Under the pieces are notes generated by a model, which had not been told where the DNA came from, searched no databases, and worked only from the letters and a program-made list of their open reading frames with translations. Positions 31,415 through 35,327 of a stretch of DNA of 64,000 nt are shown one piece after another. The DNA lies in the NCBI GenBank assembly GCA_002722245.1, contig PBLA01000027.1:62001-126000 (forward strand), written 5' to 3'. The stretch comes from Flavobacteriales bacterium (GTDB lineage Bacteria; Bacteroidota; Bacteroidia; Flavobacteriales_C; GCA-002722245). How positions within the stretch are numbered: the stretch's first letter is position 1; the number at the start of each line of letters is the position of its first letter. A program made the position numbers and the translations under genes.

Positions 31415-32455
31415 TTATTCCTTATCGGATAATTTGGACATTTGTTTTTCCAAATTATTGATCTTTTCTTGAATTTTAGGGAGGTTTCTGAATCCAACTA
31501 AGCTTTTTTGGTACGATTTTACATCAAAAGCTGGTGATCCTTGCCAAATTGAATTTTTGGTTAAAATGGATTTTCCTATTCCTGATTGTGCAGCAATTTT
31601 AACGCCCTCTTCTATGATAATATGACCTACAATACCAACTTGTCCGCCAATCATGCAGTTTTTTCCAATTTTTGTTGAACCAGCTACCCCAGATTGAGCA
31701 GCAATTACAGTGTTTTCTCCAACTTCAACATTATGGGCAATTTGGATGAGGTTATCTAGTTTCACACCTTTTTTAATGGTAGTTGACCCCATGGTTGCAC
31801 GATCAATACTACAATTTGCTCCTATCTCTACATGATCTTCAATCACTACATTACCAATTTGAGGTATTTTGTTGTATTGATTCTCTGAATTTGGAGCGAA
31901 GCCAAACCCGTCACTACCTATAATAGTTCCACTATGGATGGTGCAGTTTGAACCGATTGAACAACCATTGTAGATGGCACAGTTTGGATATATGACGGTA
32001 TTATCACCAATGCTGATATTGTTTTCAATGACAACATTCGAATGTATGGATACGTTATCTCCAATTTTTACATTTTTTCCAATTTTTACGAAAGCACCTA
32101 TATATTCGTTTTTTCCAATTTGTGTATTATTTCCAATAAAATTGGGCTCCTCTCTGCCTGTTAAACGAGGCTTCATTTCTTCATATTTTTGTAACAGTAT
32201 TGCAAATGCTCCATAGGCATCAGGAACCCGAATAAGCGTCGTTTTTACCGCTTTTTGTAACTGCAGATCTTTGCTAACAATAACGGCAGATGATGAACAA
32301 TTATATAAATATTCTTCATATTTTGGATTGGCCAAAAATGAGAGTGCGCCAGGTGTTCCTTCCTCGATTTTTGCAAAAGTGTTTATCTCTGCCTCTGGAT
32401 TTCCCTCTATTGTTCCTTGGATTAAAGCGGCTATTTGTTGAGCAGTAAATGTCAT
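31415..32455 (-). CDS. lpxD: UDP-3-O-acylglucosamine N-acyltransferase LpxD
   Basis: 346 residues. An N-terminal uridine-binding domain (about 1-100, with GALSFLANPKYEEYLYNCSSSAVIV) precedes a left-handed beta-helix of hexapeptide repeats (about 105-300, for example IGKNEYIGAFVKIGKNVKIG) and a C-terminal coiled helix. The catalytic His is in NLIQIAHNVEVGEN. It adds the second acyl chain in lipid A synthesis. It overlaps the HD gene by four bases (ATGA) and precedes lpxC/fabZ by 33 bases. Confidence 0.96.
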   Translation of the reverse strand: MTFTAQQIAALIQGTIEGNPEAEINTFAKIEEGTPGALSFLANPKYEEYLYNCSSSAVIVSKDLQLQKAVKTTLIRVPDAYGAFAILLQKYEEMKPRLTGREEPNFIGNNTQIGKNEYIGAFVKIGKNVKIGDNVSIHSNVVIENNISIGDNTVIYPNCAIYNGCSIGSNCTIHSGTIIGSDGFGFAPNSENQYNKIPQIGNVVIEDHVEIGANCSIDRATMGSTTIKKGVKLDNLIQIAHNVEVGENTVIAAQSGVAGSTKIGKNCMIGGQVGIVGHIIIEEGVKIAAQSGIGKSILTKNSIWQGSPAFDVKSYQKSLVGFRNLPKIQEKINNLEKQMSKLSDKE

Positions 32456-33681
32456 AATACTAATGATTTTGGGTAACAGATAAAAAACTTTGTTACCGGT
32501 GTGGAAAGACTAGAAATATTTAATTGGTCCGAGGCCTCTGCTATGTCTTTTGTCGTTTTGTTTTTATACAAAATACTTATTCTGTCTTTTTTTTGGTTGT
32601 AAGCATTGTTTTGTATGGTGTCACTAAAAACAAAATATTGAACATCCTCAGGATCGATGTTTAATTGCTTAACAGCTTTTATTCTTAATTCGTTAATATA
32701 CTCTGCATTATAAGGTTGTGATGAAATCTCAATTCGATATAATTTTCGATTAATCATCATGTCACAGAGTAAAGCAAGAGTTTTATCTGAATATTTTGAC
32801 CATTCTTTAACGCAAGTGAAAATATCGTTGTCATCTAATTGGGCAAATTCTCGCAACAAATCTGGATTTAGCTTAAAGTCATCGAGTGAACTATTAGATT
32901 GTAAAAACTTTTTTAATGATTTTGTACAAAATAGAGGCTCTCCCTGAATAACTAGAGCTTTGGCTTTTGTAAGAATATTAATGACTAAAAATTCAGCAGC
33001 AACCACTGTTTTATGAAGGTAAACCTGCCAATACATAATTCTTCTTGCTACGAGGAACTTTTCAATGGAATAAATCCCTTTTTCATCAATGACCAATTCA
33101 TCATTATGGACATTTAACAATTTAATGATTCGGTCTACACCAACAACACCCTCATTTACTCCTGTGTAGAAACTATCTCTATTTAGGTAGTCAAGTCGGT
33201 CTACATCTAACTGACTACTAATGAGTTGATGGAGGAATTTTTTGTGGTATTTATTTGTGAAAATCTCAATTGTTAAATCAAGTTCACCATTGAATTCCCT
33301 GTTTAATTCTTCCATAAAAAGAATAGAGAGCTCCTCATGATTAATGCCATTGACAAGCGTAAACTCCAATGCGTGAGAGAAGGGACCATGTCCTATATCA
33401 TGCAAAAGCACACCGCAGATTACCGCTTTGCATTCTTCTTCAGATATTTGATGTCCTTTCGATTGTAAGATTTCAATTGCCTGTTTTGCCAAATGCATTG
33501 CTCCAATAACATGATGGAATCTTGAATGGTAAGCACCAGGGTAAACCATGCTGGTTAGCCCGAGTTGTCTAATTCTTCTTAATCTTTGAAAATAAGGGTG
33601 TTCAATGATGTCAAAAACAATATCAAAAGGGATGTTGACAAATCCATATACTGGATCGTTGATAATCTTTTTTTTATTCAG
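32452..33681 (-). CDS. HD-domain phosphohydrolase with a probable non-AUG start
   Basis: About 409 residues if it begins at the CTG at 33681-33679. The first ATG is at 33549, but the reading frame upstream continues with obvious family sequence (KKKIINDPVYGF, HPYFQRLRRIRQLGL) joined to MVYPGAYHSRFHHVIGAMHL. From the stop TAA upstream (33709-33711) to that ATG there is no in-frame ATG, GTG or TTG. HD metal ligands are visible: His in RFHH, HDIGHGPFSH, and Asp in SSQLDVDRLDYL. The domain fits dNTP triphosphohydrolase-like HD proteins of unknown substrate. It overlaps lpxD by four bases and heads the lipid A operon. Confidence 0.85.
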   Translation of the reverse strand: MNKKKIINDPVYGFVNIPFDIVFDIIEHPYFQRLRRIRQLGLTSMVYPGAYHSRFHHVIGAMHLAKQAIEILQSKGHQISEEECKAVICGVLLHDIGHGPFSHALEFTLVNGINHEELSILFMEELNREFNGELDLTIEIFTNKYHKKFLHQLISSQLDVDRLDYLNRDSFYTGVNEGVVGVDRIIKLLNVHNDELVIDEKGIYSIEKFLVARRIMYWQVYLHKTVVAAEFLVINILTKAKALVIQGEPLFCTKSLKKFLQSNSSLDDFKLNPDLLREFAQLDDNDIFTCVKEWSKYSDKTLALLCDMMINRKLYRIEISSQPYNAEYINELRIKAVKQLNIDPEDVQYFVFSDTIQNNAYNQKKDRISILYKNKTTKDIAEASDQLNISSLSTPVTKFFICYPKSLVL

Positions 33682-33755
33682 TTTGATATCGATGACTTTT
33701 TTTGTTCTTTTTTAAAACGGAACTTATTAATTCCTATTTTTAGAGCAGACACCTT

Positions 33756-33763
33756 CAAAATTA
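33756..33763 (-). promoter_or_regulatory. -7 promoter box for the HD-lpx-efp operon
   Basis: On the minus strand this reads TAATTTTG, matching TAnnTTTG. It would start transcription near 33749, about 68 bases before the proposed CTG start. The -33 box is poor and would lie inside the porX start. Moderate to weak support. Confidence 0.35.
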
Positions 33764-33773
33764 AGATTTTTTA

Positions 33774-35327
33774 ATGGATATGATTAAAATTTTATGGGCA
33801 GATGATGAAATTGAATTATTGAAGCCACATATTCTATTTTTAGAAAGAAAAAACTACAGTGTGAAACCTGTAAAAAGTGGAGACGAGGCGATTGAAGAGG
33901 TCGCTAAATCACATTTTGATGTGGTGTTTTTGGATGAAAATATGCCTGGTGTATCAGGGTTAGATGCGTTGTTGGAGATTAAAAAGCTGAAAAAGAGCCT
34001 TCCAGTCGTTATGATTACTAAAAGTGAAGAGGAGCATATTATGGAAGAAGCAATTGGAGGTGAAATTTCTGATTATCTTATAAAGCCTGTTAATCCGAAT
34101 CAGATCTTACTTTCTTTGAAAAAAATTCTTGATAATTCGCGATTAATTAGTGAAAAATCTACGCTTGATTATCAAAAGGAATTTCGTCAAATTAGCATGG
34201 AGCTTTCAGATAGGCTAGATGCTAAGGATTGGATAAATATTCAAAAAAAACTGGTGTATTGGGATTTAAAGCTTGCTCAGGGAGAGGAGTCAGGTATGGG
34301 GGAGATACTTCATGCACAAAGGCAGGAGGCCAACCAGTCTTTCTGTAAATATGTTGAACGAAACTATGTGGAATGGTTGAACAATCCAGATGAAGACACT
34401 CCAATTTTATCCCACACTTTATTGGAAAAGAAATTAATCCCTGAATTGTCAGAATCTCCAACATTTCTCATTGTTTTGGATTGTCTTCGTTATGATCAGT
34501 GGCGAACACTTCAATCCGAATTTTCTAAACATTTTTTAATTGAAGAGGACGAATGTTACTTTTCTATTTTACCTACTGCAACACAATTTGCAAGAAACGC
34601 ACTTTTTGCGGGACTTATGCCTTCAGAAATTCAAAGACAATTTCCTCAATATTGGATCGATGAGGATGAAGAGGAAAAAAAGAATGACCATGAAGAGGAA
34701 CTCCTTCGTGCTTTGTTAAAGAGGAATGGTAAGAATGAGTTAAAAATAACCTACAATAAAATAACTAATTTACACGGAGCACGTAGATTACTGGATAGAT
34801 TTCATGAATTGAAACAGAATGATTTAAATGTGATTGTGTACAATTTTGTAGACACTCTTTCTCATGCACGAACAGATTTTAAAGTGATGAGGGAACTTGC
34901 TGAGGATGAAAAAGGGTACAGAAGTATTACGAAGTCATGGTTTGAAAATTCACCATTATTAGAGATGTTGAAGCAATTAAAAGGATCAGGAGCAAAAGTG
35001 GTATTAACTACCGATCACGGATCAGTTTTGGTGGATCAACCACGAAAAGTTATGGGAGATAAAAACATCAGTACTAACCTTCGTTATAAAGCGGGTAGAA
35101 ATATGAACTATGTGCATAAAGAGGTGTATGAAGTAGATGATCCAGCGGATGTTTTTTTACCGAAATTAAACATAAGTACACGTTATATTTTTGCAAGAAA
35201 CAACGATTTTTTTGCTTACCCGAATAACTACAATCATTACGTTAAACATTACAGGAATACATTACAACATGGAGGTATAAGTATGGAAGAAATGATTGTT
35301 CCAATTGTTATTATGAAAAGTAAATAG
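33774..35327 (+). CDS. porX: PorX: response regulator with PglZ phosphodiesterase domain
   Basis: 517 residues. The receiver domain (about 1-125) has the acidic pair Asp10/Asp11 (WADDE), the phosphoacceptor Asp54 (VVFLDENMPG), Thr82 (MITKSEE) and Lys103 (DYLIKP). After a helical linker comes a PglZ/alkaline-phosphatase-like domain (about 220-510): LIVLDCLRYDQW, ILPTATQFARNALFAG, YNFVDTLSHARTDF and VVLTTDHGSV. This architecture is PorX, which with kinase PorY controls type IX secretion genes and hydrolyses oligonucleotide signals. An ATG two codons later is an equally good start. porY is not in the window. tsaE starts right after its stop. Confidence 0.95.
   Translation: MDMIKILWADDEIELLKPHILFLERKNYSVKPVKSGDEAIEEVAKSHFDVVFLDENMPGVSGLDALLEIKKLKKSLPVVMITKSEEEHIMEEAIGGEISDYLIKPVNPNQILLSLKKILDNSRLISEKSTLDYQKEFRQISMELSDRLDAKDWINIQKKLVYWDLKLAQGEESGMGEILHAQRQEANQSFCKYVERNYVEWLNNPDEDTPILSHTLLEKKLIPELSESPTFLIVLDCLRYDQWRTLQSEFSKHFLIEEDECYFSILPTATQFARNALFAGLMPSEIQRQFPQYWIDEDEEEKKNDHEEELLRALLKRNGKNELKITYNKITNLHGARRLLDRFHELKQNDLNVIVYNFVDTLSHARTDFKVMRELAEDEKGYRSITKSWFENSPLLEMLKQLKGSGAKVVLTTDHGSVLVDQPRKVMGDKNISTNLRYKAGRNMNYVHKEVYEVDDPADVFLPKLNISTRYIFARNNDFFAYPNNYNHYVKHYRNTLQHGGISMEEMIVPIVIMKSK

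Follow-up and report, generated by a model that had tools for sequence, protein, structure and literature searches.

A conserved AUC/AUA codon as the probable translation start of a SAMHD1-like HD phosphohydrolase gene in a genus of Flavobacteriales

Translation of an HD-domain phosphohydrolase gene, located directly upstream of lpxD in a Flavobacteriales bacterium, probably starts at a near-cognate AUC codon (33693-33691; AUA in one sister species). From the aligned sequences, the best explanation appears to be a conserved AUC/AUA start of the kind known from infC and sigR. A first-pass annotation of the window (the whole 64,000-nucleotide stretch analysed, whose positions are used throughout) had proposed that a non-canonical start limits translation of this gene, as AUU does in infC; the comparison with relatives favours that idea, but not the specific codon, CTG, that it named. 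The features discussed are given in Table 1.

Table 1. Features of the HD gene and its surroundings (window positions).
Feature	Position	Strand	Evidence or remark
HD-domain phosphohydrolase CDS (COG1078/SAMHD1-like), 413 aa	32452..33693	-	Proposed ATC to TAA stop; Pfam, 2q14, purifying selection
Proposed start codon ATC	33691..33693	-	ATC/ATA in 5/5 congeners; sole start-zone column with a shared near-cognate codon
CTG put forward in the first-pass annotation	33679..33681	-	AGA/CGA/CGA/AGA in four congeners, not conserved
First in-frame ATG, internal methionine, not start	33547..33549	-	~45 conserved residues upstream; synonymous/nonsynonymous 16-27 vs 3-8
A7 tract, A-rich initiation region, no Shine-Dalgarno	33697..33703	-	A-run present in 5/5 genomes
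TAATTTTG, Bacteroidota -7 promoter box of the HD-lpx operon	33756..33763	-	TAnnTTTG 62-67 nt upstream of ATC/ATA, 5/5
lpxD, next in operon, ATG start	31415..32455	-	4-nt overlap with HD gene end; ATG in 63/63 homologues
porX-like response regulator, divergent, ATG start	33774..35327	+	Divergent from HD in 141/141 loci with both

The HD-phosphohydrolase frame extends over 32452-33711 on the minus strand and is preceded by an in-frame TAA at 33714-33712, a stop codon that the first-pass annotation had recognised but placed at 33711-33709. When the frame was re-read, no in-frame ATG, GTG or TTG was met between 33711 and the ATG at 33549, as had been claimed. Among the 56 non-overlapping long ORFs of the window, this gene alone has its first canonical start later than codon 18. 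In a larger sample of the same genome (364 kb, the window plus 300 kb taken from other parts; ORFs of 120 aa or more), the first canonical start fell beyond codon 50 in 3 of 306 ORFs. The second of these three is a DUF4178 gene whose domain is located after its ATG, and a Pfam search with the third matched no family. The first canonical start of the HD gene comes later than chance would produce.

The HD phosphohydrolase encoded here is intact. Both PF01966 (HD) and PF19276 (HD_assoc_2) scored above cut-off in Pfam, and the closest solved structure, the phosphohydrolase 2q14, was aligned over query residues 13-415 (E=1e-143). The HD-family residues RFHH, HDIGHG and SQLDVDRLDY were found at positions 64, 104 and 166 of the translated frame, in which the ATC codon is residue 7, and the H...HD...D residues and HD-associated region of SAMHD1/EF1143-like COG1078 enzymes are present. 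HD and HD-associated domains, with full-length alignment, are shared with 2q14 and with the EF1143/SAMHD1 dNTPase family (2o6i); those proteins are known through structure or activity. Scores against the NCBIfam dGTPase equivalog models were far under cut-off, and dNTP hydrolysis is predicted purely from family membership. Nothing was found on a special start codon in the 2q14/EF1143/SAMHD1 family.

The claim that family residues precede the ATG at 33549 was borne out: the alignment to 2q14 begins at query residue 13, SAMHD1 homology spans the same N-terminal region, and the region KKKIINDPVYGF...HPYFQRLRRIRQLGL upstream of that ATG is present in 194/194 class homologues examined. Because homology to 2q14 and SAMHD1 covers the region before 33549, the N-terminal block belongs to the fold. 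In the interval from the proposed start to this ATG, the five congeners differ mostly at third positions, with 16-27 synonymous against 3-8 nonsynonymous codon differences per pair; one close pair showed 4 synonymous and 0 nonsynonymous differences. Such strong purifying selection on the codons downstream of ATC/ATA indicates that the stretch is translated. A shorter protein, starting at the ATG or at an Ile codon in the conserved block (ATT ATC before AAC GAT CCA), is improbable. The ATT/ATC at -2/-1 (start positions were anchored on the Asn of the NDP motif) and the Met at 33549 are both present in 5/5 congeners, but a start at 33549 would lose about 45 residues conserved as far as SAMHD1 and under purifying selection, and NKKK, retained with synonymous AAA/AAG swaps, lies within the protein where starts are canonical.

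The 5' ends of homologues were read at 194 loci across the class, including 182 distinct ones outside the genus (deduplicated; named and unnamed records partly overlap), and five genomes of the genus and ten of the order were compared. ATG, GTG or TTG was found 7-17 codons before NDP in 180 of the 182 homologues outside the genus, the two exceptions having GTG at 22 and TTG at 5 codons. A canonical start in this zone was found in 0/5 genus genomes. As in other genes with conserved near-cognate starts, such as infC and sigR, the start zone is thus free of ATG, GTG and TTG and one codon is kept at a single aligned position in 5/5 genomes: column -11 reads ATC, ATA, ATC, ATC and ATC. GAA or GAT follows in all five, and ATHGAW is invariant while the codons at both sides vary. 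Columns -2/-1 are also near-cognate in all five, but these encode the Ile-Ile of the conserved motif. Two pairs among the five genomes are close, and the sample amounts to about three independent lineages with one evolutionary origin.

The CTG at 33681-33679, whose position had been given correctly, lies four codons downstream of ATC/ATA. A start there in this genome would give MNKKKIINDP; the codon is near-cognate with A at -1 to -3, and more homologues in the class start at -7 before NDP than anywhere else (55/187, mostly TTG AAT AAA). However, the column reads AGA or CGA in 4/4 congeners, which would still need another start, and the sole solution shared by all is ATC/ATA. CTG was rejected as a conserved start and is an unlikely one in this genome. 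The first-pass annotation had suggested aligning close relatives to see whether the CTG, or else an ATT or ATC, is kept and whether they use ATG at that place; the codon that proved to be conserved is ATC/ATA, present in all five genomes, whereas the CTG occurs in one and was probably wrongly chosen, and homologues outside the genus use some ATG but mostly UUG or GUG. In this genome only, CTG or GTC could serve as a start too.

Two of the five congeners have no canonical in-frame start whatsoever. In two others the sole in-frame canonical codon is a TTG that closes the TAATTTTG promoter box as its final three bases and is therefore expected to stay outside the transcript; the fifth has just a leader TTG 11 codons upstream, which is out of frame in its nearest relative. 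The box takes the form TA[AG]TTTTG in the five congeners, and -7 boxes were present in 108/192 homologous leaders against about 21 expected from shuffling. Distances from box to ATC/ATA are 62, 65, 66, 66 and 67 nt in the five genomes; as the distance is not kept modulo three, the interval is leader and not coding. Likewise, the reading frame is not conserved between species upstream of ATC/ATA and is conserved downstream. An A-run of differing length precedes the codon in 5/5 genomes, with A at -4 and -6 relative to it in 5/5. The base best known to promote initiation, A at -3, occurs in only 3/5 congeners; this genome has G there. In Bacteroidota, A-rich unstructured leaders are preferred and Shine-Dalgarno pairing is not used, and in Flavobacterium an A-rich context promotes initiation (PMC6847099).

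The A7/A8 runs would be available for slippage, and ribosomal frameshifting or transcript slippage there from an upstream out-of-frame canonical start might make the N-terminus; this genome carries an out-of-frame GTG ORF of 24 codons (minus strand, 33752 to a TGA at 33680-33678). Out-of-frame starts and ORF lengths vary between lineages, however, from 4 to 24 codons in different frames, and no conserved upstream ORF or slip-to-frame arrangement was found across the congeners, the 24-codon ORF not being conserved; this origin is very improbable. The same ORF begins just past the promoter box, and its TGA overlaps the CTG. A sequencing or assembly error, whether an A-run indel or a substituted start codon, is scarcely credible. 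A-runs are error-prone and the genome is a 34-contig assembly, but five separately assembled genomes have no canonical start in the zone, with A-run lengths that differ. A second species, assembled independently (G002, L005), is without any canonical start and three more are without one in the zone, which excludes an assembly indel. The congener comparison effectively rules out sequencing error, initiation at 33549 and conserved frameshifting.

Within 33729-33763, the HD operon -7 box (33763-33756) is separated from the start codon of porX by 10 nt. Immediately downstream of the box is a conserved TAAAAATAGG block, which reads CCTATTTTTA on the other strand. CCTATTTTTA may be the porX -7 element, in which case the divergent HD and porX promoters would interlock.

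Start codons of the HD gene were compared with those of neighbouring genes at the same loci. Where HD and porX were both found they were adjacent in 139 of 141 loci, with ATG as the porX start in all, and HD was directly upstream of lpxD at 54/65 loci containing both. Among 180 distinct homologues in the class Bacteroidia, HD starts were TTG in 77, ATG in 70 and GTG in 33. UUG or GUG is therefore used in 110/180 (about 61%), against 0/279 in the neighbours, which all start with ATG (lpxD 63/63, lpxC-fabZ 63/63, efp 17/17, porX 136/136; 279/279), a difference with a Fisher p of about 1e-57 on undeduplicated counts and with relatedness ignored. Counts for lpxA were left out, as rows reading 'none' were probably matches to lpxD hexapeptide repeats. 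These sequence comparisons point to weak initiation that is specific to the HD gene, old and recurrent. Since about 61% of HD genes start with UUG or GUG while the neighbours all start with ATG, weak initiation seems to be selected, and the purpose of that selection is probably to keep the SAMHD1-like protein scarce.

In a tree of 113 homologues, the genomes with AUH starts form one clade with 100% local support. The sister genus has UUG and GUG starts only, and two of its genomes (L088, L089) carry TTG in the column aligned with ATC/ATA. The simplest path would be from a weak canonical start to AUH once, with retention afterwards. With UUG or GUG used in most of the class, AUC/AUA would stand at the far end of a tendency to weak starts that is itself long-standing. 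It is possible, though rather unlikely, that AUC/AUA is used but arose by neutral drift without a regulatory role: it has one evolutionary origin, and the HD gene switches start codon frequently (27 or more times on the tree). Against drift, ATC/ATA persists in lineages whose proteins have diverged by about 23%, the adjacent genes never leave ATG, and a survey of close genomes counted AUG to AUU switches at 1 in 61,358 (PMC5622118). At one further locus, L159 (G054:C75), the nearest canonical start of the HD homologue is a GTG at -22, outside the usual zone, and ATT ATT stands at -17/-16; this may be a second, independent AUU start.

By established translation biology, initiator fMet-tRNA would pair with just the first two bases of AUC or AUA, and IF3 would disfavour the initiation complex on such a codon. 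IF3 discriminates against codons whose third base pairs weakly with the initiator anticodon (PMC10158994). Pairing at two positions together with IF3 discrimination would imply an HD protein made at a low level set by the balance of IF3 and 30S, and low, IF3-sensitive synthesis is accordingly what would be expected. IF3 is encoded in 3/5 genus genomes, this one included. Its gene infC starts with ATG in both congeners in which it was read, and was rejected as a second AUH-start gene of the genus. The arrangement might serve to hold a dNTPase-like enzyme below the amounts of LpxD, LpxC and LpxA, which are made from the shared mRNA. We tentatively suggest, as a possibility that is more doubtful than the start codon itself, that an IF3-gated, genus-wide AUC/AUA start derived from weak UUG/GUG acts as a translational valve, linking how much SAMHD1-like dNTPase is made from the lipid A operon mRNA to the state of the initiation machinery.

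To our knowledge, very few natural starts other than AUG, GUG and UUG are conserved across species (infC, sigR and a handful more). The precedents include infC starts of ATT, and of ATC in Streptomyces, and the GTC of sigR (PMC5472188). Like the HD gene, infC (AUU in E. coli, ATC in Streptomyces) has a near-cognate AUH codon that is expected to be disfavoured by IF3 and is conserved among relatives; there IF3 regulates its own gene, whereas the HD phosphohydrolase has no known link to initiation. Streptomyces sigR resembles it in having a conserved non-canonical start that is overlooked by gene finders. The sigR start holds its product below the level of a same-operon partner (PMC5472188); the HD gene is not known to have such a partner, and differs in codon (AUC/AUA against GTC) and in phylum, and an effect of IF3 on it is a prediction. 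Text searches of the literature found no description of non-canonical starts in Bacteroidota and no papers on HD/lpxD operons.

Bacteroidota ribosomes, being independent of Shine-Dalgarno pairing, may be more dependent on the start codon. With gene finders limited to three start codons, the HD protein would be annotated about 50 residues too short. Across the class, one gene is biased towards UUG/GUG while its neighbours always use ATG, which makes it a clean natural example of selection for weak initiation, and one that can be tested in culturable relatives.
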